A stretch of 38,593 nt of DNA from positions 1-38,593 of the forward strand of contig JALSIB010000054.1 in the NCBI GenBank assembly GCA_026981855.1, written 5' to 3'. A model generated the notes under the pieces. The model had not been told where the DNA came from. It did no database searches and worked only from the letters and a program-made list of their open reading frames with translations. This stretch comes from Methylothermaceae bacterium (GTDB lineage: Bacteria; Pseudomonadota; Gammaproteobacteria; Methylococcales; Methylothermaceae). The position numbers and the translations under genes were made by a program. Every line of letters begins with the position of its first letter. Position 1 is the first letter of the stretch. Positions 2,668 to 37,154 of the stretch are shown piece by piece.

Positions 2668-3559
2668 AACGATCCGCGAGGACGATGCCCACCTGATTCA
2701 ACGGTTCACCGAAACCCTGTGGCTGGAGGAGGGGTTGAGCGAACATACCCTCAAGGCCTACGGCAGCGATCTGAAGCAGTTCGCCCGCTGGTCGGGAAGG
2801 CCGCTGCTGCAGGTGGACAGCGCCGATCTTTCCGCCTATCTCGCCCACCTCGGTCAGCGTGGCGGCAGCGCCCGCAGCAGTGCCAGAATCTTGTCCAGCC
2901 TGCGAAAATTCTATGGATACTTGGTGCGCGAGCGTCTGATCGGTCTCGATCCCAGTTCGGGAATCGAATCCCCCTATCTGGGACGGCCGCTCCCGGACTC
3001 ACTCAGCGAAGCGGAGGTCGAAGCCCTGCTGGAGTCTCCCGATACCTCCCGGGCATTGGGATTGCGGGACCGCAGCATGCTGGAAGTCCTCTACGCGACG
3101 GGCCTGCGCGTTTCGGAACTGGTGGCCCTGCGTTTCGATCAGTGGGATCAACTGCGGGGGTTGGTGAGATTGTTCGGCAAAGGCAACAAGGAACGCCTGG
3201 TCCCTCTGGGCGAGGAAGCGACGATCTGGCTGGACCGTTATCTGGGCGACGCTCGTCCCGTGCTGCTGGGTGTCCGCCGGTCGGAATATTTGTTCGTCAC
3301 CCGCCGGGGAGGACCGATGACCCGGCAGGCATTCTGGCATCTGATCAAACGATACGCCCGCCGGGCGGGTATCTCCAAACCCCTGTCCCCCCATACGCTG
3401 CGTCACGCTTTCGCCACCCACCTGATCAATCACGGGGCGGACCTGCGGGTGGTGCAGATGTTTCTGGGACACAGCAGCCTGTCCACGACCCAGATCTATA
3501 CCCATGTGGCCCAGGAGAGGCTGAAACGCCTGCACGAGACATATCATCCGAGGGGATAG
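2660..3559 (+). CDS. xerD: Site-specific tyrosine recombinase XerD
   Basis: Encodes 299 residues. XerD acts with XerC at dif to resolve chromosome dimers under FtsK control. The N-terminal SAM-like domain (about 10-95) is followed by a catalytic domain with all six residues: Arg150 (YATGLRVSEL), Lys174 (GKGNKERLVPLGEE), His245 and Arg248 (SPHTLRHAFATHL), His271 (LGHSSLSTT) and nucleophile Tyr280 (QIYTHV). The similarity to XerD over XerC is clear from WLEEGLSEHTLKAY near the start and the GADLRVVQM segment. It overlaps the upstream alkyltransferase gene. Confidence 0.95.
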   Translation: MVETIREDDAHLIQRFTETLWLEEGLSEHTLKAYGSDLKQFARWSGRPLLQVDSADLSAYLAHLGQRGGSARSSARILSSLRKFYGYLVRERLIGLDPSSGIESPYLGRPLPDSLSEAEVEALLESPDTSRALGLRDRSMLEVLYATGLRVSELVALRFDQWDQLRGLVRLFGKGNKERLVPLGEEATIWLDRYLGDARPVLLGVRRSEYLFVTRRGGPMTRQAFWHLIKRYARRAGISKPLSPHTLRHAFATHLINHGADLRVVQMFLGHSSLSTTQIYTHVAQERLKRLHETYHPRG

Positions 3560-3649
3560 GAAACGCCGGAGCAAAAGGCGGCGGCGGGCGATGGGGTGCT
3601 TTCTGATCTAATATTGTTGCAAACGACATGACTGCCGGGGGGAAAGGCA

Positions 3650-4714
3650 ATGACCGGGGAAGAGGAAAAAACGGACAAGCGGGTACTGGTCACCGGTGGT
3701 GCTGGTTACATCGGCAGCCACACCTGTGTGGAATTGCTGAATGCGGGTTTCGAGATCGTGGTGGTGGACAATCTGAGCAACAGCAAGATCGAGTCCATCC
3801 GCAGAGTGGAACGGATCACCGGGAAAGACATTCCGTTCTTCGTCGGCGATATCGGCGACAGAGTGGAGATGCGCAAGATCCTGTCACTTTTCCCGGTCGA
3901 AATCGTGGTGCATTTCGCGGGGCTCAAGGCGGTCGGCGAATCGTGCGAAAAACCCTTGCTGTATTATCAGAACAACATCGCCGGTACCTTGAACCTGTGT
4001 GAGGAAATGGGCCGGGCGGGGGTCAGGCGCATGGTCTTCAGTTCATCGGCCACGGTTTACGGCGATCCCCATGTGGTGCCCATCACCGAGGATTTCCCGC
4101 TGCAGGCAACCAACCCCTACGGCCGCAGCAAGCTGTTCATCGAGGAAATCCTGAAGGATCTGGTCAGCGCCGACAGGCTGAAGCAGGCACAGAACCCCTG
4201 GACGGTGACCCTGCTGCGTTATTTCAATCCGGTCGGAGCCCACGAAAGCGGCACCATCGGCGAAGATCCCAATGGCATCCCCAACAACCTGATGCCCTAC
4301 ATCACCCAGGTGGCGGTGGGCAAGCTGGAAAGGCTGCGGATTTTCGGGGGAGACTATCCGACCCGGGACGGCACCGGGGTGCGCGATTACATCCATGTGG
4401 TGGATCTGGCCAAGGCCCACGTCAAGGCGGTGGAAGCGCAGATGAAGCGGGCTCCCGGGCAGGTCTTCACCTACAATCTCGGGACCGGAACCGGCTACAG
4501 CGTGTTGGAAGTGGTCGAAGCTTTCGAGTCCCAATGCGATGTCCATATCCCCTATGAAATCGTGGGCCGGCGCCCCGGCGACGTGGCCGAATGTTACGCC
4601 GACCCGGCGTTGGCCGCGGCGGAGCTGGGCTGGCGGGCCGAAAAGGGAATCGGCGACATGGTCAAAGACGCCTGGCGCTGGCAGTCGCAAAATCCGGAGG
4701 GGTATCCGGATTGA
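3650..4714 (+). CDS. galE: UDP-glucose 4-epimerase
   Basis: Encodes 354 residues of an extended short-chain dehydrogenase that interconverts UDP-glucose and UDP-galactose with bound NAD, supplying galactose for surface polysaccharide. The NAD motif GGAGYIGSH holds the GxxGxxG glycines 16, 19 and 22. The catalytic set is SSSATVYG (about 131-138) plus Tyr157 and Lys161 in NPYGRSK. The C-terminal part ([41 protein letters not shown]) is characteristic of GalE. ATG 3650 has a good ribosome binding site (GGGGGGAAAGG). The gene appears monocistronic and faces the convergent copper-protein operon. Confidence 0.93.
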
Positions 4715-4796
4715 GAGAGGCGCCTTTCACTCAGACCCAGGCGACGATTCGGCCGCGTCTGGTATGCGCCTTCAGGAAATTCGTGCGGCGCTCTGC

Positions 4797-5435
4797 TCAT
4801 TCGCCCATCGCCTTCAACAGTCGGCGCCCGCCCCACACCAGGACCACTCCCGCAACCAGCGCCAATAGCAGTGACACGATCGAGCCCGCGGTCCAGTCGG
4901 TCGGGTAGCGGTCCGGGCGGACCGCTTTGGTCAGGCCGGGCAGGCTGGCCAGATCCCGGTCGCCGCCGGCCACCTTGATCTGGGCCTTCATGCCGTGTTC
5001 TGTGTGCTGGGCGATGTCGCAGTGAACCAGGTAGGTCTTTTTGTACGGCGGCAGAATGAACGAGGCCGTTTCTTCCCCCGGTCCCGACACCTCGATGGTG
5101 AACATGCCCTGGGGGTAGATCTTTTCCGGCAGGCCGTGGACCATGAACTGGTGACGGATGTCGTCGTCGTTGACGAACCGGACCGTCAGCCGGGTGCAGG
5201 GGGCGACGTCCCAGCTCTGCCGGTCGTAGGCGAAGACCAGTCCGGGGAATTTTTTGGCGTGTTTGCGTCCGGCATGGACGGTGATCTTCTGGTCCCCCGA
5301 GATCCTTTGGCAGCCTTCGGGCAGGGTCATGGGGTTTTCGTTCATCACCATGCTGTCCATGTCCATGCGATGACCGGCGAAGCTCCAGGCCGGCAGGAGC
5401 AGTATCGACAGAAAAACGATGCTTGGAATTTTCAT
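4797..5435 (-). CDS. Membrane-anchored cupredoxin (blue copper) protein
   Basis: Encodes 212 residues. A signal peptide (MKIPSIVFLSILLLPAWSFA) is followed by a Met/His-rich start (GHRMDMDSMVMNENPM), a cupredoxin-like domain and a C-terminal transmembrane helix (about 185-205). Plausible type 1 copper ligands are His95 (DIRHQFMVHG) with Cys139, His144 and Met149 in HCDIAQHTEHGM. The protein probably carries electrons on the periplasmic face of the inner membrane. It starts inside the stop of the multicopper oxidase gene (4-bp overlap), so it is a natural candidate donor or acceptor for that enzyme. It could instead be an accessory copper chaperone. It is not a standard azurin or plastocyanin. 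Confidence 0.82.
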   Translation of the reverse strand: MKIPSIVFLSILLLPAWSFAGHRMDMDSMVMNENPMTLPEGCQRISGDQKITVHAGRKHAKKFPGLVFAYDRQSWDVAPCTRLTVRFVNDDDIRHQFMVHGLPEKIYPQGMFTIEVSGPGEETASFILPPYKKTYLVHCDIAQHTEHGMKAQIKVAGGDRDLASLPGLTKAVRPDRYPTDWTAGSIVSLLLALVAGVVLVWGGRRLLKAMGE

Positions 5436-7084
5436 CGCCCTTTCCTCCCGTCACGCCAAAGTGCCACCAGCAGCCCCAGGGCCAGGCCCAGCAACAGCCC
5501 GGCGATCACCACCCGGATGGTGTTGGGGGGCAGGGGCGCGGCATCGGAAAAAATCGCCCATTCGTCGCTTCGTGCCCATACCGGCACCTGTTTTCGATAG
5601 AACCAACGATTGAAGAAGGGAACCAGATCCATCCCCTGCAATTTCGGGAAACCGTCCTCGCCGAGATATTTCCGGTAGATCACCAGACCGATGTCGCCGC
5701 CCGGTCCGATGCCGTCGGAAGTGACGCTTTTTTCCGCGTGGTCGTGCATCAACCAGGCCCCCTCGCCGAAACTGTGCAAACCGTCGTCGTGGGTGTCGAG
5801 CACCAGAGTCAGCCTTTGCGCCGGTGCCAGTGCCTGCACGTCCCGGGTGACGGGGGATTCCAGGGGCACGCCGTCGGCGGCGATGGCGGTGGTCTTGTGG
5901 CCGTGGAGGTGAAGCCCGAGTGTGTGTGGGTGGCCGTTGGCCACCTGCAGCAACACCTTTTGTTCCGGCTCCACCACGATCAGGGAATCGCGCAGGGTAT
6001 AGGGAAAGGATTCGCCGTTGAGCAGGAAGAAATCCTCGTCCGAGTCGGTGATGTCATACTCGCGGTTCATCGCTCTGGCCACCAGGCGGGGGTCGTTGTG
6101 CGCCTGGATCGGCAGATAGCGTTCCTTGTCCAGGGACTGGAAGTGGAGGTCGTATTCCTGGTCGAAGCGTTGCCGGCTGGCGGCGGAGCGGTGCCTGACC
6201 TTGCCGGCGCCGATGTTGAAGGTCTGGAGCCAGTTGTCGGGGCGGTTCTCTTCCACGATGAACAATCCCTGCAGCCCCATGAGCATGTGTTTGTCGGTCT
6301 GCACATGGCAATGGTAAAGCATCGCGCCCGGCCGGCGGGGGGTGATTTCATAGGTGCGCCGCTCGCCCGGCATCAACATCTTCTCGCTGGTGACGGGGAC
6401 GCCGTCATTGCCCTGGCCATCGGCGCGCAGATAGGGGTGGTCGACGCCGTGGAGGTGGATGGTGTGGGGAAAATAATGGCTGTTTTCCAGCGTCAGGTAG
6501 ATCGTGTCCCCCTGCTCGACCCGGATGGGCGGCGAGGGGGCGCGCAACATGGGGTTGGCGTCCAGATTGACCGCATCCACGGTGGCCATGCCGCGCATCT
6601 TGGGAACGAACACCCACATACCCGGCGTCAGGCCGGGCGCGATGCGGTAACCGGGGATGAGAAAGTCGCCGTCCGGGGTGCTGCCGTTGAGTTCGGCCAC
6701 CTCCAGCTTGATGTGGATGACATCGGGATCCCCGTCGCCGTCACGGTCGTTTTCCTTGACCACCGCGTCCATCGCCAGCCGGGTCTTCATCAAGGTGGGC
6801 ATGGAAACCTTGTCGGTGCCCTTGACCACGCTGGCGACCAGATAGGGGTTGTCGGGCTTGCACTGCGGGTCTTCCTCGATTTCCACCCCTTCGATGCTCT
6901 GGGCCTGGCGCCATTCAGGATGCTCGAATTGACAAAAATCCTCGGTGTCGTCCAGGGAGGGCACCCACTTGACGGTCGAGGGAAGCGACAGGCCCGCCTC
7001 GGTCAAGGGGCCGGGAAAGAAAATCCAGGCCAGAGAGAGGCTGATGGCGATGCCGAGCAAATAGAAAAGACGGGTCAGGGTCAT
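5432..7084 (-). CDS. Membrane-anchored multicopper oxidase, type 1 site only in the first domain
   Basis: Encodes 550 residues with an N-terminal signal anchor (about 4-22) and a C-terminal transmembrane helix (about 522-541), and the catalytic part between them. Four His motifs are visible: HTIHLHG (207-213), YHCHVQTDKHMLMG (257-270), HPHTLGLHLHGHK (385-397) and LMHDHAEK (445-452). Cys259, His266 and a nearby Met can form a type 1 site in the first half. The last motif has Asp448 where laccases have the type 1 Cys, so it can give only type 2/3 ligands. This pattern resembles type C two-domain oxidases such as the blue copper oxidase of Nitrosomonas (recalled). It overlaps fchA upstream and the cupredoxin downstream by 4 bp each. 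Substrate unknown. Confidence 0.85.
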   Translation of the reverse strand: MTLTRLFYLLGIAISLSLAWIFFPGPLTEAGLSLPSTVKWVPSLDDTEDFCQFEHPEWRQAQSIEGVEIEEDPQCKPDNPYLVASVVKGTDKVSMPTLMKTRLAMDAVVKENDRDGDGDPDVIHIKLEVAELNGSTPDGDFLIPGYRIAPGLTPGMWVFVPKMRGMATVDAVNLDANPMLRAPSPPIRVEQGDTIYLTLENSHYFPHTIHLHGVDHPYLRADGQGNDGVPVTSEKMLMPGERRTYEITPRRPGAMLYHCHVQTDKHMLMGLQGLFIVEENRPDNWLQTFNIGAGKVRHRSAASRQRFDQEYDLHFQSLDKERYLPIQAHNDPRLVARAMNREYDITDSDEDFFLLNGESFPYTLRDSLIVVEPEQKVLLQVANGHPHTLGLHLHGHKTTAIAADGVPLESPVTRDVQALAPAQRLTLVLDTHDDGLHSFGEGAWLMHDHAEKSVTSDGIGPGGDIGLVIYRKYLGEDGFPKLQGMDLVPFFNRWFYRKQVPVWARSDEWAIFSDAAPLPPNTIRVVIAGLLLGLALGLLVALWRDGRKGR

Positions 7085-7692
7085 AATTTTTTCAACACCA
7101 GTTGATAGAGGGTTTCCACTTCATGGTCCTTGCCGTTCAGCAGGTCGTCGAGCAGCCGCCGGCGGTCCTCGACGAACGCCCGGTCACGGATGACGTTGAG
7201 GTTCACGATCACGTTGATGGCGCAGCTTTTCAGCGCCGCCTGGGCGGCCAGCACGCCGACGCCGGCATCGGAGATCACATTGACGTTGCCGCTTTCGGCG
7301 GCCGTTCGGCACAACCCGATGACCTCGCCGCACAGCCGGGCGCAGGCCAGCGGCGCATCGGTGGCGGATTTGAGGGCCGTCTGGATTTTGCCGCCGCGCT
7401 CCGGGTCATCTTTCGGCAGGCGATAGGCGGCCATCACCTGATTGAAGGCGGCGATGTCGTCGTCGATGGCGGCGAGCAAACGCTGCCGCAGCGCCTCCGA
7501 TCGTTCGAGCAGTTCACGCATCTGCGGTTCGACTTCCTGGTACCTGGGTTTTCCGATGGTGAGGTTGGCGACCATACTGACCAGGGCCGCGCCCATGCTC
7601 CCCATCACCGCCGCGGCGCTGCCGCCGCCGGGGGTGGGAGAGGCGCTGGCCAGTTGATCCAGGAATTCGGTGAGGGAATGCTGTTGATACAT
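7081..7692 (-). CDS. fchA: Methenyltetrahydrofolate cyclohydrolase FchA
   Basis: Encodes 203 residues of the formiminotransferase-cyclodeaminase-like cyclohydrolase family. FchA interconverts methenyl-H4F and 10-formyl-H4F in methylotrophs and works in series with MtdA. Visible features are the glycine-rich SPTPGGGSAAA (18-28), LVSMVANLTIGKP, the helical mid-part with PLACARLCGEVI, and NVISDAGVGVLAA with LNVIRD near the end. The divergent neighbour is mtdA, which supports the assignment. Its stop overlaps the multicopper oxidase start (ATGA), so it is the promoter-proximal gene of a mixed one-carbon and copper-protein operon. Confidence 0.92.
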   Translation of the reverse strand: MYQQHSLTEFLDQLASASPTPGGGSAAAVMGSMGAALVSMVANLTIGKPRYQEVEPQMRELLERSEALRQRLLAAIDDDIAAFNQVMAAYRLPKDDPERGGKIQTALKSATDAPLACARLCGEVIGLCRTAAESGNVNVISDAGVGVLAAQAALKSCAINVIVNLNVIRDRAFVEDRRRLLDDLLNGKDHEVETLYQLVLKKL

Positions 7693-7834
7693 GTGCGGCC
7701 TGCAAAGGATTGGTGCGAGAAATGACCAACCATTATAATCGAACCCGCCTTTTCGTGGATGCGCTTGATGTTATGTTGCGGGGCAGTGGCGGTGCCGCTG
7801 AAGCCCTTCTCCTTTTCGCTGAAATTTACGGAGC
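7693..7834. promoter_or_regulatory. Divergent fchA-mtdA promoter region
   Basis: This 142-bp gap must hold the promoters for both directions. The palindrome ATTATAAT (7732-7739) contains a perfect TATAAT on each strand. On the plus strand TTGGTG (7710-7715) lies 18 bp upstream of it as a weak -35. I saw no convincing -35 on the minus strand. A shared -10 would tie the two one-carbon genes together. GGAG (7830-7833) precedes mtdA. Confidence 0.4.
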
Positions 7835-8698
7835 ATGTCATTGAAGAAGTTGTTGTTTCAGTTCGATACCGATTCCCGTCCCGCTTCCTTCGACACGGTG
7901 GTGGCCTATGATGGCGGGGCCGATCAGGTGATCGGTTACGGGGGGGTGACCCCCGAAAATGTGACGCCGCTGGTGGAAGGCGCCATTTTCACCCGCCCGC
8001 CCAGGGAAAAGAAAAATACCGCCATTTTCATCGGTGGGAGCGATCTTTTGGCCGGTCAGGCACTGCTCGAGGCCGTGAGGAACGTGTTTTTTGCCGGTTT
8101 CCGGGTTTCGGTCATGCTCGACAGTAACGGCAGCAACACCACGGCGGCGGCGGGGGTGGCGAAAATCGCCGCCAGCACGCCTGTCGCCGGCAAGAAAGCC
8201 GTGGTGCTGGCGGGAACGGGCCCGGTCGGTCAGCGGGCGGCGGCCCTGTTGGCCAGGGAGGGGGCGGAAGTCCTCCTGACTTCGCGGGAGCTGGAGCGGG
8301 CCGAAAAGGCTTGCGCCGCCATGAAAGACCGCTTTGGCGTGGAGATCGAGCCGGTGGAAGCCTGCGACGACGACGCCCGGGGCAGGGTGATCCGCAGCGC
8401 CCAGATCGTTTTCGCCACCGGCGCGGCGGGGGTGCGACTGCTGGAAGAACGCCACTGGAAGGATCTGGAAAAGCTGGAGGTGCTGGCCGATGCCAACGCC
8501 ACGCCCCCTCTGGGTATCGAAGGGGTGGAAATGATGGATCGGGGCGAACGCCGGCATGGCAAGGTCTGCTGGGGCGCGATCGGCTTCGGCACCCTGAAGC
8601 TGGCCGTTCACAAGGCTTGCATCGCCCGGTTGTTTCAGCGTAACGATCAGATCTTCGATGCCGAGGAGATCTACGCCATCGCCAGGGAGATGGCATAG
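7835..8698 (+). CDS. mtdA: NADP-dependent methylene-H4F/H4MPT dehydrogenase MtdA
   Basis: Encodes 287 residues, matching the 288 of Methylorubrum MtdA. The enzyme oxidises methylene-tetrahydrofolate (and methylene-H4MPT) with NADP and links formaldehyde oxidation to assimilation. Recognisable MtdA segments are the N-terminus KKLLFQFDTDS, VVAYDGGADQVIGYG, MLDSNGSNTTAAAGVA, the nucleotide-binding VVLAGTGPVGQRAA, and the end FDAEEIYAIAREMA. It is not MtdB-like at the N-terminus. GGAG sits only 1 nt before ATG 7835, so the in-frame TTG at 7841 could be the real start; either gives a complete enzyme. Pairs functionally with the divergent fchA. Confidence 0.95.
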   Translation: MSLKKLLFQFDTDSRPASFDTVVAYDGGADQVIGYGGVTPENVTPLVEGAIFTRPPREKKNTAIFIGGSDLLAGQALLEAVRNVFFAGFRVSVMLDSNGSNTTAAAGVAKIAASTPVAGKKAVVLAGTGPVGQRAAALLAREGAEVLLTSRELERAEKACAAMKDRFGVEIEPVEACDDDARGRVIRSAQIVFATGAAGVRLLEERHWKDLEKLEVLADANATPPLGIEGVEMMDRGERRHGKVCWGAIGFGTLKLAVHKACIARLFQRNDQIFDAEEIYAIAREMA

Positions 8699-8712
8699 GG
8701 GCGTTGCATCGC

Positions 8713-8730
8713 CCGGCTGACCGCAGCCGG
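8713..8730. terminator. Hairpin between convergent mtdA and cysS
   Basis: A perfect 7-bp stem, CCGGCTG (8713-8719) with CAGCCGG (8724-8730), has the loop ACCG and lies 15 nt after the mtdA stop and 11 nt from the cysS stop. There is no T tract on either side, so it may stop transcription only weakly or work with Rho. Confidence 0.35.
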
Positions 8731-8741
8731 CCGGGTGCGGT

Positions 8742-10130
8742 TCATTCCCGCCGCCACAAGGTGCCCTGGGGGGTGTCTTCCAGGGTGATGCCCTGGGCCT
8801 TGAGCCGGTCACGGATCCTGTCGGCGGCGGCCCAGTCGCGCGCTTCCCTGGCTTGCTCGCGCGCCCGGATCAGGTCTTCGATTTCCTGCGGCGGCAGTGT
8901 TTCCCTTCCTCCTTTCAGAAAAGCCTCGGGCTCCTGGGTCAGGATGCCCAGGGTATTGCCCATGAATTTCAGTATGGCGCCCAGGCGGGCGGCTTCCCCG
9001 GGGTCCTTTTCCCGCAGCCGGTTGATTTCCTTCGCCAGATCGAACATCACCGCCAGGGCGCCGGGAGTGTTGAGGTCATCGTCCATGGCTGCCTGGAAAC
9101 GTTCAAGCCAGGGGTCGCCTTCCAGCCTGGCGGCTTCGGGGGGTACGGGTGCAAGCCCCCGCAGAGCCGTGTACAGCCGGGTGAGCCCGGCCCGCGCTTT
9201 TTCCAGGGATTCATGGGAGTAGTCCAGGGGACTGCGATAGTGGCTGGTGAGGATGAAGAAACGGACCACTTCCCCCGGAAACTGTTTGAGAATCTCGCGG
9301 ATGGTGAAAAAGTTTCCCAGGGATTTGGACATCTTTTCCTTGTCCACCCTGACGAAGCCGGCATGAATCCAATAGTTGACGAAAGGTTCGCCAGTGGCGC
9401 CTTCGGATTGGGCGATCTCGTTCTCGTGATGGGGGAACTGGAGATCGGCGCCACCGCCGTGGATGTCAAAATGGGCGCCCAGACAGGTGGTGGACATGGC
9501 CGAGCACTCGATGTGCCAGCCCGGCCGCCCCGGCCCCCAGGGAGAGTCCCACGCGGGTTCTCCGGGTTTGGCGCGTTTCCACAGTACGAAGTCCAGCGGA
9601 TCGCGTTTCGATTCGTTCACCTCCACCCGCGCTCCGGCCCGCAGTTCTTCAGGTTTTTTGCCGGAAAGCTTGCCGTAGCCCTCGAATTTGCCGACCGCGT
9701 AATAGACGTCGCCGTTTTCCCCCACATAGGCGTAGCCTTTGTCGATCAATCGCTGGATCATATCGATGATGGCGCTGATGGAGCGGGTGGCCCGGGGTTC
9801 CTCGTCGGGGGGGAGGCAGCCGAGGGCCCGTTCGTCCTCGTGCATGGCCTCGGTGAAACGGTCGGTCAAGGTTTCGAAAGGCACCCCCGTTTCAGCCGCC
9901 CTTTGGATGATCTTGTCGTCGATGTCGGTGATATTGCGTACATAGGTGACCTCGAAGCCTTTCATCCGCAGATAGCGGGCCAGCACGTCGAACACCACCA
10001 TCACCCGGGCGTGGCCCAGGTGGCAATAATCGTACACCGTCATGCCGCATACATACATGCGGACCTTGCCCGGCTCCAGGGGGGTGAAGATTTCCTTGGC
10101 GCGGGTAAGACTGTTGTAAAGTTTCAACAT
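8742..10130 (-). CDS. cysS: Cysteinyl-tRNA synthetase
   Basis: Encodes 462 residues from ATG 10130; E. coli CysRS has 461. It charges tRNA-Cys with cysteine. The zinc ligands that select cysteine align exactly with E. coli: Cys28 (YVCGMTVYD), Cys209 (WHIECS), His234 and Glu238 (FPHHENE). The class I signatures are HLGH (37-40) and KMSKS (266-270). The open frame extends further upstream into gltX, but that extension has no family similarity, so ATG 10130 is the start. It lies 5 nt behind gltX, so both are probably on one transcript. Confidence 0.96.
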
Positions 10131-33958: not shown

Positions 33959-35896
33959 ATGATCAAACGATTCGATTGTCAGCCTGATCGGAAAACCCCT
34001 ATGGCCAATGACCCCTTGCCCCGGCTGCTTCCTGATGAACGAACCGTGCAGTTGAGCAGCGAGCAGGCCGGTTTGCTGTTGAAACTGCAGCGTGACGTAC
34101 TGGCCGAGGTGGTGCAAGGGGAAGCCCAATCGGCTTTGGAACTGCTGTGCGTCACTGCCGAACACCTGCTGCCGAATTCAGTGGCCTCCATCATGCTGTT
34201 CGATGATTCCCGAAGCTCCCTCAATGTCCGTGCCGCGCCCAGCATTTCCCCTGAGGCCATCGCCGCCTTGAATGGCCTCAAGCCGGGACCTGCGGCGGGA
34301 TCTTGTGGAACTGCGGTCTTCAGGGACGAGCCCCAGTTCGTCTGCGATACGGAGATCGATCCCCGTTGGTCCAGCCCGGACTTCAGAAGCGTTGCCGAAA
34401 AATTCCATATTTGCGCCTGCTGGTCCCTGCCGGTCCGAATTGCGGGGGAGGTGGTCGGATCTTTGGCGCTTTCCAGTTTTGAAAAACGCCAGCCCTCTGA
34501 ATTCCATCGTCTGTTGCTGGAAACGGGCGCCTATTTGGTGGGAATCATTCTGGAGCGTGAACGTGAACAGCAGCGCTTGTGGAGGATGGCTCATTTTGAC
34601 AGTCTCACCGAGCTTCCCAACCGCAGAGGGTTCAACCAGCAGTTGGAAGAGAGGATTCATGCCGCCGCAGAAAGCGGGAATCGACTGGCTTTACTGTTCC
34701 TCGATCTGGACCACTTCAAGGACATCAACGATACTCTGGGGCATCATGCCGGTGATATGGTATTGCGCCAGATCGCCTGCGCTCTGAAGACCGTCCTGCG
34801 ACCTGCCGATATCATGGCCCGTCTGGGCGGGGACGAGTTCGTGATTCTGCTGCCGGAAGTCGAGGATATTCTCGATGTCCATCATGTGGCCGACAAAATC
34901 ATGCTCGCCGTCAAACGGCCCATATTCCTGGAAGGTCGAAGTTACCGCCTTTCCGCCAGTATCGGCATCAGTCTATATCCCGACGATGGCGGGGATTTGC
35001 AGACATTGCACAAAAACGCAGACCTGGCGATGTACGAAGCCAAGGCCAAAGGGCGGGATCGCTATATTTACTACCGTCCGGATCTGGCCACACTGATTGA
35101 GTCTCGGACCGCTTTGGTGGGGGATATCCGTCAGGCTCTGCAAGAGCAATCCTTCTTCCTCGAGTATCAACCCCAAATCTCGGCGACGAGTGGCAGATTG
35201 GCGGGGGCGGAAGCATTGATTCGATGGCGCCATCCCCGCAAGGGGTTGATTCCACCTTTGGATTTCATTCCCTTGGCCGAAGAGACGGGGTTGATTACCG
35301 AACTGGGTGACTGGGTTCTCGTCACGGCGTGCAGGCAATCTTTGGATTGGTGGCGGCAGGGAGCGCCTGAATTCGTCTTGTCCGTCAACCTGTCGGTGAA
35401 ACAGTTGCTGGACGGTTATCCCGAGCGGATACTGTCCACCCTCGCACAGTTGCATTTTCCACTAAGGCTGCTGGAACTCGAGATTACCGAAAGTCTGGTC
35501 ATGGAAAGTGGTGGTGAGGCGCTCGAGCAACTGGAGAAACTGAGGCGTGCTGGAGTCTCCATCTGTATGGATGACTTCGGAACCGGGCATTCTTCCCTGG
35601 CCCAACTTAAAAGGATGCCCATCTCCAGGCTCAAGATCGATCGTTCGTTCGTGCGCGATATTCCGGAAGACCCCAGCGACATGGTCATCGCTCGGACGAT
35701 CATTGCCATGGGTCATAGTCTGGGACTCGAGATCGTGGCCGAAGGGGTGGAAAACGAAGTGCAGAGATCGTTTCTGATGACGGAAGGATGCGATTTCCTG
35801 CAGGGATATCTGATCTCCCGCCCCCTGCAGCCGGGGTCTTTCAAACAGTTTCTGATGGGGGGTGATTTTGATCCAGGTCAACAGCGGGATGGTTAG
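33959..35896 (+). CDS. GAF-GGDEF-EAL cyclic-di-GMP signalling protein
   Basis: Encodes 645 residues and has no membrane segment. The GAF domain (about 55-200) includes GSCGTAVFRDEPQFVCD and a CACWSLPV segment. The cyclase domain has RLGGDEF (GGDEF at 290-294) and an intact product-inhibition site RPAD (281-284) five residues before it. The phosphodiesterase domain has AEAL (EAL at 418-420), SVNLS, LELEITES, MDDFGTG, LKIDRSF, VAEGVE and LQGY, so all metal and catalytic positions look intact. Both activities may therefore be present, with GAF choosing between them. ATG 34001 is an alternative start. nirK follows 70 bp later. Confidence 0.92.
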   Translation: MIKRFDCQPDRKTPMANDPLPRLLPDERTVQLSSEQAGLLLKLQRDVLAEVVQGEAQSALELLCVTAEHLLPNSVASIMLFDDSRSSLNVRAAPSISPEAIAALNGLKPGPAAGSCGTAVFRDEPQFVCDTEIDPRWSSPDFRSVAEKFHICACWSLPVRIAGEVVGSLALSSFEKRQPSEFHRLLLETGAYLVGIILEREREQQRLWRMAHFDSLTELPNRRGFNQQLEERIHAAAESGNRLALLFLDLDHFKDINDTLGHHAGDMVLRQIACALKTVLRPADIMARLGGDEFVILLPEVEDILDVHHVADKIMLAVKRPIFLEGRSYRLSASIGISLYPDDGGDLQTLHKNADLAMYEAKAKGRDRYIYYRPDLATLIESRTALVGDIRQALQEQSFFLEYQPQISATSGRLAGAEALIRWRHPRKGLIPPLDFIPLAEETGLITELGDWVLVTACRQSLDWWRQGAPEFVLSVNLSVKQLLDGYPERILSTLAQLHFPLRLLELEITESLVMESGGEALEQLEKLRRAGVSICMDDFGTGHSSLAQLKRMPISRLKIDRSFVRDIPEDPSDMVIARTIIAMGHSLGLEIVAEGVENEVQRSFLMTEGCDFLQGYLISRPLQPGSFKQFLMGGDFDPGQQRDG

Positions 35897-35966
35897 GAGC
35901 TGAAACCATCCTGGCCCCGGAGTATCTTTGCTGCTTTACCAACCCTATTACAAAGGAAATAAAACA

Positions 35967-37154
35967 ATGATGAGTGCAGCAGTGAAGCGGTGTGGGCAGG
36001 TGGTTGTTTTGGGACTCTCCTTGACATTGATCTGGCATGGAAAACTGACTGCCGGGACCGGTCACGACAGCCAGCAATCTCGGCACGAGGGAAAGCCCGA
36101 GTCTCTGGAGACCTTCGGTCCGGGGGACAGTTTCCACCTCCACAAGACCATTCACCCGGAAGATTACAAGCAGGTGGCCGATATCGCCAGGCATCCCGAT
36201 GACCTTCCCCCTCCCATTGCCATGTGGCCGCCCGAAACCGTCGAAGTGAATCTGGTGGCGCGGGAAGTGGTTTCGGAGATCGCCCCCGGCATTCGTTTCC
36301 ATTACTGGACTTTCAACGATACCGTTCCAGGCCCTTTCATTCGAGTCAGGGTGGGCGACACGGTCAAGCTGACCCTTCACAACGACGAAACCAGCAGTCA
36401 CGAGCACAACATCGACCTGCACGCGGTGAACGGACCGGGTGGGGGAGCGGTGCTGACCAAGGTCAAATCGGGCGAAACCAAATCCTTCAAATTCAAGGCG
36501 CTCAATCCCGGTCTTTATGTCTATCATTGCGCCGCGGGCAATGCCCCCACCCATATCGCCAACGGCATGTACGGCATGATTCTGGTGGAGCCGGAAGAGG
36601 GCCTGGCTCCTGTGGACCATGAATTCTACGTCATGCAAGGCGAGCTTTATACCAAAGGCTCCATCGGCACCCAGGGTTTCCAGCCTTTCGATGGTCGCAA
36701 GATGTTCGATGAGCGTCCTGAATACGTTATCTTCAACGGTCGGGTGAAGTCATTGGTGGCGCATCCCTTGAGAGCCAAAACGGGCGATACCCTTCGTATA
36801 TTCGTCGGCAACGGGGGTGTCTCGCGGATTTCCTCGTTCCATGTCATTGGCGAGATATTCGATCGGGTTTGGCCTGAAGGGGCTACCACCCGGCCGCTCG
36901 AGAACGTGCAGACCACCCTCGTTCCCGCAGGTGGCGCGGCGATGGTGGAGTTCAAGGTCGATGTGCCGGGTGCCTATGTCCTGGTGGATCATGCCCTGAG
37001 CCGGATCGACCGGGGTGCCTGGGGTATTCTCAAGGTGGAGGGGAGGGAGAATCCGGCGGTGTTTTCACCCCTCTCAGAAGGGGGCGCTGCTATGCCTGGA
37101 TCTTCCGTCCAGGAGATTGACGCCGGTTCTGTCAGGTTGAAGATACGTCAGTGA
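35967..37154 (+). CDS. nirK: Copper-containing nitrite reductase NirK
   Basis: Encodes 395 residues from ATG 35967, with AAAGGAAA upstream. It reduces nitrite to nitric oxide in the periplasm. A signal-type N-terminus (about 10-30) precedes two cupredoxin domains. Type 1 ligands are His147, Cys188, His196 and Met201 (YHCAAGNAPTHIANGMYG); type 2 ligands are His152, His187 and His342 (LVDHALSR). The catalytic Asp150 (HNIDLHA) and His292 (SSFHVIGEIFD) are present, so the enzyme looks functional. The sequence around Cys188 is of the short-loop kind seen in many environmental NirKs. No nor genes lie in the window. A bidirectional hairpin ends the gene. Confidence 0.95.
   Translation: MMSAAVKRCGQVVVLGLSLTLIWHGKLTAGTGHDSQQSRHEGKPESLETFGPGDSFHLHKTIHPEDYKQVADIARHPDDLPPPIAMWPPETVEVNLVAREVVSEIAPGIRFHYWTFNDTVPGPFIRVRVGDTVKLTLHNDETSSHEHNIDLHAVNGPGGGAVLTKVKSGETKSFKFKALNPGLYVYHCAAGNAPTHIANGMYGMILVEPEEGLAPVDHEFYVMQGELYTKGSIGTQGFQPFDGRKMFDERPEYVIFNGRVKSLVAHPLRAKTGDTLRIFVGNGGVSRISSFHVIGEIFDRVWPEGATTRPLENVQTTLVPAGGAAMVEFKVDVPGAYVLVDHALSRIDRGAWGILKVEGRENPAVFSPLSEGGAAMPGSSVQEIDAGSVRLKIRQ

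Follow-up and report, generated by a model that had tools for sequence, protein, structure and literature searches.

A cluster of overlapping fchA, multicopper oxidase and cupredoxin genes in Methylothermaceae, and relatives of the oxidase beside genes of copper membrane enzymes

Gene content of the fchA-mco-cup locus

We analyzed a 38,593-nt stretch of DNA (contig 54, JALSIB010000054.1; hereafter the window) of the 2.75 Mb draft genome of a Methylothermaceae bacterium (GCA_026981855.1). In this window fchA, a gene of folate-dependent one-carbon (C1) metabolism, is followed on the same strand by genes encoding a multicopper oxidase (mco) and a cupredoxin (cup). The first-pass annotation of this DNA had described the three genes as joined by two ATGA overlaps, with mtdA in divergent orientation, and the coordinates confirm this arrangement (Table 1). 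Beyond mtdA lies cysS, in convergent orientation.

Table 1. Features of the window discussed in the text
Feature	Position	Strand	Product or description	Supporting match or remark
fchA	7081-7692	-	methenyltetrahydrofolate cyclohydrolase, 203 amino acids	NF045657, 304.8 bits (cut-off 275); PF04961, 221 bits
mco	5432-7084	-	two-domain multicopper oxidase, 550 amino acids	Pfam Cu-oxidase_2/_3
cup	4797-5435	-	type 1 cupredoxin, predicted exported, 212 amino acids	
fchA/mco ATGA overlap	7081-7084	-	4 nt	stop TGA 7083-7081, start ATG 7084-7082
mco/cup ATGA overlap	5432-5435	-	4 nt	stop TGA 5434-5432, start ATG 5435-5433
fchA-mtdA intergenic gap	7693-7834		142 nt	between divergent starts
mtdA	7835-8698	+	methylenetetrahydrofolate/methylenetetrahydromethanopterin dehydrogenase homologue	PF09176, 115 bits
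galE	3650-4714	+		TIGR01179, 438.7 bits; convergent to cup, closes the fchA-galE interval with the copper genes
GGDEF/EAL protein gene	33959-35896			neighbor of nirK
nirK	35928-37154	+	NirK	TIGR02376, 329 bits (over cut-off)

The fchA product exceeds the cut-off of the FchA equivalog model over residues 1-203. The mtdA product is related to the solved MtdA structures 6tge, 6tlk and 1lu9 over its full length (about 334 bits, E about 1e-98, residues 4-287). MtdA enzymes are NADP-dependent dehydrogenases of methylene-H4F and methylene-H4MPT.

Ribosome binding sites were assessed by the duplex energy with the 16S rRNA tail, against a background of 500 random window positions (median -3.5, 5% point -9.5 kcal/mol). 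A Shine-Dalgarno sequence, GGAGGAAAGG, is located immediately 5′ of cup (-10.3 kcal/mol), while none was found for mco (-2.8 kcal/mol). A strong ribosome site for cup and none for mco fits translational coupling of mco to fchA. A consensus scan of positions 3400-8900 gave no promoter-like site (0.9 expected), and was blank even 5′ of fchA and mtdA; it gave six terminator-like sites (4.8 expected), none of them on the strand of fchA, mco and cup.

The oxidase and the cupredoxin

In a fold comparison the predicted model of Mco scores highest against 3g5w, the blue copper oxidase of Nitrosomonas, and against 2zwn (Z 24.6 for each), and in a profile comparison Mco matches both domains of each, which identifies it as a two-domain oxidase. 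Twelve residues are invariant in all 37 aligned sequences (the window protein plus 36 of 42 oxidase rows, with partial, overlong and some near-duplicate rows dropped by eye). Their roles, assigned from the profile alignment to 3g5w and 2zwn and from general knowledge of these enzymes, are (i) type 1 copper ligands in domain 1 (H207, C259, H266 and M269), and (ii) ligands of the type 2/3 trinuclear cluster (H210, H212, H258, H260, H392, H394, H447 and H449). Two-domain multicopper oxidases with the type 1 site in domain 1 form homotrimers with intersubunit trinuclear sites. The model is of moderate confidence (predicted local distance difference test score, pLDDT, 76.1) and contains helices at residues 3-22 and 522-548, which are probably membrane anchors. 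A conserved DxDGDGDPD loop (residues 113-121), within a further conserved N-terminal part (residues ~45-120), is perhaps a calcium site.

Three known classes were considered for Mco and rejected: CopA/PcoA (copper_res_A; 39.9 bits, cut-off 478.95), CueO (33.4 bits, cut-off 525) and NirK (39.8 bits, TIGR02376 cut-off 296.3). A gene for the copper nitrite reductase NirK is present elsewhere in the window, next to a gene for a GGDEF/EAL protein (Table 1). A PF00394 search of the window genome returned nothing (0/1), although Mco itself matches PF00394 weakly in hmmscan, and this result was counted as a miss of the search and not as evidence.

The type 1 copper site of Cup is complete: H95, C139 and H144 are invariant and M149 is nearly so in 31 sequences (the window protein plus 30 of 40 cupredoxin rows, selected by eye in the same way). 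The AlphaFold model (pLDDT 92.7) shows a cupredoxin fold followed by a C-terminal helix (residues 183-211), which probably anchors the protein in the membrane. The closest folds include auracyanin, the cupredoxin domains of NirK and nitrosocyanin. The N-terminal stretch is rich in His and Met, as it is in many Cup proteins. Assignment of Cup to the CuA-forming class of PmoD/AmoD was rejected, since inspection by eye revealed no Cys with the Cx7MxHxnC spacing that marks this class.

Conservation of the gene order

The order fchA-mco-cup was found in 9 of the 10 genomes of the genus-level group, i.e. the window genome (G000) and G002-G009 (G and L numbers denote genomes and loci in our numbering); G004 is included, with its genes split over two contigs and the order inferred. 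The cluster is thus not restricted to a single genome; such a restriction is an outcome that the first-pass annotation had named as refuting its interpretation. Protein identity of the trio to the window ranges from 62 to 87% within the group, with Mco at 79-87% and FchA falling to 62%. The mco-cup junction is ATGA in all nine genomes, each with a strong Shine-Dalgarno sequence for cup (-9.3 to -10.3 kcal/mol). The fchA-mco junction is ATGA in seven; in G002 and G007 the two genes are separated by 5 nt. In all nine, mco is devoid of its own Shine-Dalgarno sequence (+1.2 to -3.7 kcal/mol). The galE gene also bounds the fchA interval in G001, G003, G004, G005, G006 and G008; no galE was detected in the parts of G002, G007 and G009 that were read.

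The exception, G001, retains the divergent fchA and mtdA as well as a PmoA gene, and its sole oxidase match is at the locus of the other paralogue (see below). Behind fchA it carries a gene for an unrelated predicted exported protein (X), which overlaps fchA by GTGA, then a gene for an M10 protease, convergent to galE. In G006 the same two genes stand between cup and galE (fchA-mco-cup-X-M10 protease, convergent to galE), whereas in the window cup directly faces galE. Either G001 has lost mco and cup, or the remaining genomes of the group have gained them. The example of G001 demonstrates that genes other than the copper genes can overlap the end of fchA, and that the fchA-linked pair can be absent from a PmoA-bearing genome. 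X and the matrixin-like M10 protease occupy positions 11874-13795 of L055 and 2894-4773 of L146, behind fchA (G001) or cup (G006). Homologues of the protease were detected in 10/10 genomes of the genus and in 0/51 other relatives (at 1e-10).

An fchA match was found in 44 of the 61 relatives. Of these, 34 lie outside the genus, including G028, whose match is weak. The methylotrophs covered by this comparison are those within the order. Adjacency of fchA and mco was seen in none of the 34, of which 30 could be resolved; in the other four (G010, G013, G017 and G036) the contig ends less than 500 nt downstream of fchA, and a link across the gap is possible. For 25 of the 34, the flanks examined (up to 1.5 kb) contain no mco. 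In the remaining nine, every strong oxidase match is either on a contig other than that of fchA, with 3 kb or more of sequence read or present downstream of fchA, or separated from fchA by no less than 200 kb. The divergent arrangement of fchA and mtdA is widespread, occurring in 18 of the 25 loci read outside the genus. In L132 (G051) a gene for a DUF2167 protein, judged by eye to be exported, lies about 20 nt behind fchA. The lack of fchA-mco outside the genus, together with the other gene behind fchA in G001, indicates that the folate link is lineage-specific. The earlier question of whether the trio is conserved in other methylotrophs therefore has a divided answer: it is kept within the lineage (9/10), and was not found in the fchA-bearing genomes of the order beyond it.

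Relatives of the oxidase and the c2-mco-cup unit

A strong match to the oxidase was obtained in 58 of the 61 relatives, including the window genome. The three genomes in which it is absent (G025, G034 and G055) are also without PmoA. The oxidase family is older than the link with fchA: it is order-wide and usually adjoins a cupredoxin gene. The window genome itself contains a second copy of the oxidase gene, linked to a gene for a third protein, c2.

In a tree of 85 oxidase rows, 24 form clade B (Shimodaira-Hasegawa-like approximate likelihood ratio test, SH-aLRT, 98), which holds the Mco of the window together with members of families f2, f3, f5 and f8 (our numbering). The tree was obtained by a quick search with no bootstrap, its root was drawn at the midpoint, and it omits identical proteins and matches with fewer than 331 query residues or below 38% identity. 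Many of the relatives outside clade B are encoded in a c2-mco-cup unit; rows with c2 account for a large part of the remaining tree, but they form no single supported clade. Export of c2 was read by eye.

Among 91 oxidase loci, 44 contain c2, and since L060 and L077 represent one stretch of DNA, 43 of these are distinct. Eleven of the 43 are situated directly downstream of pmo genes: (i) L068, L083, L088, L089, L093 and L114, of which the named ones belong to Cycloclasticus, (ii) L050 (family f7), L150 (G094) and L154 (G333), (iii) L086 of Candidatus Binatota and (iv) L091 of Sinimarinibacterium, with one extra gene before cup. With the query used, pmoC was not found in L083, L089 and L154. 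One further c2 locus, L066, is a few genes away from pmo and is not counted among the eleven; in this locus, and in L040, whose contig stops short of c2, cup and pmoC are separated by four genes for small membrane proteins, one of them VTT-like. Another five of the 43 (L094, L100, L102, L103 and L151) stand beside coxB and coxA, and the coxB product of L094 contains COX2 and cytochrome c domains. Neither c2 nor the small neighbors of the pmo loci scored above a Pfam cut-off (28.7 against 33.9 for the VTT-like protein). Small membrane-protein genes between the oxidase unit and pmoCAB, none above the Pfam cut-off, were noted in L040 and L066 as well as in L038, where they precede the contig end.

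A 4-nt overlap between mco and cup occurs in 46 of 78 loci. This figure is approximate: a pair suitable for counting was missing in 12 of 90 loci, some stretches of DNA are represented by two loci, and starts were set at the closest candidate position.

Some other gene contexts were observed. One group of f8 oxidases (L043, L046, L048, L063, L069 and L071) lacks cup, and c2 was likewise not seen in the sequence read. In L149, from genome G405 with its three PmoA copies, genes resembling norC and norB by eye follow mco and cup. The c2-linked unit of Methylothermaceae (L032-L036, L060, L076, L077 and L078) is convergent to a gene for an SBP56-family protein. The SBP56 family includes the copper-dependent methanethiol oxidase, and it is possible, by analogy, that this neighbor encodes such an enzyme.

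Co-occurrence of the oxidase with PmoA

In a set of 369 gammaproteobacterial genomes, eight encode both the oxidase and PmoA, three the oxidase only, two PmoA only and 356 neither (Fisher p 9e-13). PmoA was therefore detected in 8 of the 11 oxidase-bearing genomes and in 2 of the 358 without the oxidase. Within family f6 both are present in 11 of 14 genomes and neither in the other three (p 0.003). A phylum-wide sample, with an oxidase match at 1e-60 in 3 of 398 genomes, added little.

One of the three oxidase-only genomes of the class is the window's own draft. No PmoA match was obtained in the drafts of G000, G007 and G008; their pmo copies are probably unassembled, and for the window draft this is suggested by the presence of PmoA in 7 of 9 sister genomes.

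Location near genes of copper membrane monooxygenases (CuMMO) was observed for part of the c2-bearing relatives, and co-occurrence with PmoA for the oxidase-bearing genomes; such a link was not seen for the clade B loci that were read. Of the interpretation in the first-pass annotation, the connection with copper-dependent methane metabolism is supported at the level of the oxidase family, which is statistically tied to copper monooxygenases.

Proposed role of the pair and alternative explanations

We propose that Mco and Cup constitute a membrane-anchored periplasmic copper-handling pair that serves membrane copper enzymes, and that one paralogue of this pair has come to lie behind fchA. We give this reading a probability of about 0.5. 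As relatives of the pair are often encoded beside the genes of copper methane- or alkane-oxidizing enzymes, it more probably serves these than folate chemistry. The recurring neighbors (CuMMO, cytochrome oxidase and the SBP56-family protein) share a dependence on copper, which favors copper handling over a role in any single pathway. The two-domain oxidase would use O2 to oxidize a donor of single electrons, for which Cu(I) and the cupredoxin are the most likely candidates. The cupredoxin would exchange electrons or copper, in either direction, with membrane copper enzymes, for example the particulate methane monooxygenase (pMMO). Together they may ensure that periplasmic copper has the valence and location required for metallating or protecting these enzymes. 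Ribosomes ending translation of fchA would probably start mco, after which cup would use its own strong Shine-Dalgarno sequence. The outcome would be steady expression linked to a housekeeping C1 gene, without any biochemical link between folate and copper.

Several observations weigh against this reading. A majority of the distinct c2 loci (26/43) show no pmo or cox gene in the flank read, the length of which varies. For the clade B loci, including that of the window, no neighboring pmo or cox gene was detected and no c2 match was obtained. No cup was seen in the stretch read of 11 of the 91 oxidase loci, mostly belonging to one f8 group, so the pairing of mco with cup is usual and not universal; eight of these 11 are G-numbered stretches of f8 and f2, and two share DNA with named ones or are truncated where the contig stops. 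Common descent is not taken into account in the Fisher tests, and 2 of the 10 PmoA-positive genomes of the class have no oxidase. Furthermore, 18 of 24 named oxidase-bearing genomes gave no PmoA match; these 24 were picked by title from 44, leaving out Methylothermaceae, Methylobacter, Methyloprofundus, Methylococcales and Cycloclasticus, and at least two of them (L079 and L101) match relatives of the order. An exclusive link of the oxidase with CuMMO is rejected on this count and on the five loci beside cox genes. Finally, the Shine-Dalgarno sequence of fchA itself is weak throughout the genus-level group (-0.7 to -5.6 kcal/mol), and the missing site before mco is consequently weaker evidence of coupling than it appears.

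The alternative closest in spirit to the first-pass annotation is that a periplasmic copper redox step is produced in proportion to the formaldehyde/formate flux through FchA, as the two functions would have to match. The order kept across the genus-level group, the missing Shine-Dalgarno sequence of mco and the association of the oxidase family with methane-type monooxygenases agree with it. It is nevertheless very unlikely, given that none of the 34 fchA-bearing genomes from the rest of the order shows the adjacency (four of them being cut at contig ends), and that quite different products are encoded in the same position, namely X and the M10 protease in G001, with a similar overlap, and the DUF2167 protein close behind fchA in L132. 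Of the coupling originally suggested, co-production of the oxidase with FchA is plausible, while joint control by C1 flux as a general trait of methylotrophs is not upheld. Pure hitchhiking, in which the pair stands behind fchA by chance and its products are unrelated to the position, draws on the same variability: G001 and G006 have different genes in this place, and so do genomes outside the genus. We regard it as rather unlikely because the order persists in 9 of 10 genomes even where FchA identity drops to 62%, which makes some constraint on expression likely. The position of the pair in this one lineage is best read as a way to set its expression.

Two further explanations concern the activity of the pair. 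The cupredoxin could shuttle electrons between the respiratory chain and a monooxygenase or oxidase, with Mco as a minor sink for O2 at low oxygen. The type 1 site and C-terminal helix of Cup, the similarity of its fold to auracyanin and to NirK cupredoxin domains, the cytochrome oxidase genes among the neighbors and the norC/norB-like genes of G405 are all consistent with such a branch. The His/Met-rich N-terminus of many Cup proteins points instead to copper handling, and no cytochrome is conserved beside the pair among the neighbors recognized; such a branch is judged unlikely. Plain detoxification in the manner of CueO or PcoA, with the oxidase merely clearing excess Cu(I), appears still less probable. 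An oxidase with intact copper sites and a probable periplasmic location could perform this function, and Mco has weak similarity to the copper_res_A and CueO models. The scores lie far below both cut-offs, however, and no copper pump, CopB or CopD was recognized among the neighbors by query or by eye (an RND-type efflux pair was noted by eye in L149). Moreover, the oxidase is rare in Gammaproteobacteria (11/369) and concentrated in carriers of PmoA.

A broader proposal, which we offer tentatively, is that c2, the oxidase and the membrane cupredoxin form a previously undescribed accessory system, present in at least two phyla, that may supply cytochrome oxidases and copper membrane monooxygenases with electrons or with copper in the correct valence state. 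Methylothermaceae would possess two paralogues of it, one of them translationally coupled to a C1-assimilation gene, so that upkeep of the copper enzymes follows C1 growth. No description of c2-mco-cup or of fchA-mco was found in the accessible parts of the open-licence literature searched. Next to PmoD (see below), the c2-mco-cup unit, found directly beside pmo genes in several lineages of two phyla, is another concrete candidate for the supplier of copper and electrons to pMMO, and one whose genes are amenable to deletion in methanotrophs that can be cultured. The lineage-specific coupling to fchA offers a clean case in which to ask if the amount of an exported copper enzyme can be governed by the translation of a gene for a cytoplasmic protein.

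Comparison with known systems

The side-by-side placement of fchA and mtdA resembles the mtdA-fch C1 genes known from Methylobacterium. The window differs in that the two genes are divergent and that, in one lineage only, copper genes follow fchA.

CueO and CopA/PcoA are multicopper oxidases of the periplasm, where Mco is probably located as well. They are three-domain proteins, and Mco remains far under the cut-off of each model. The two-domain fold of Mco is shared by 3g5w of Nitrosomonas europaea and the metagenomic laccase 2zwn (283 and 273 residues aligned, with 24 and 25% identity, respectively), and the copper ligands of each domain correspond. Mco is distinguished from both by its extra conserved N-terminal part, the helices at both ends and the cupredoxin encoded alongside.

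A cupredoxin gene near a CuMMO cluster is also a feature of the blue copper proteins of Candidatus Angelarchaeales (PMC9038741). According to the accessible part of that paper, these archaeal proteins have a single domain and, at the N-terminus, five membrane helices, and no c2-mco-cup unit is described in that part.

A further parallel to Cup is PmoD/AmoD, as presented in the accessible part of PMC6189053. This copper protein has a cupredoxin fold and a periplasmic domain, occurs in carriers of CuMMO and is encoded partly in or near pmo operons. PmoD was put forward there in 2018 as a possible missing link for pMMO, and the PmoD genes of one class are commonly located near multicopper oxidase genes. 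The CuA-forming PmoD carries the Cx7MxHxnC motif and binds copper in a dimer, whereas Cup has a single type 1 site and an oxidase as its partner.

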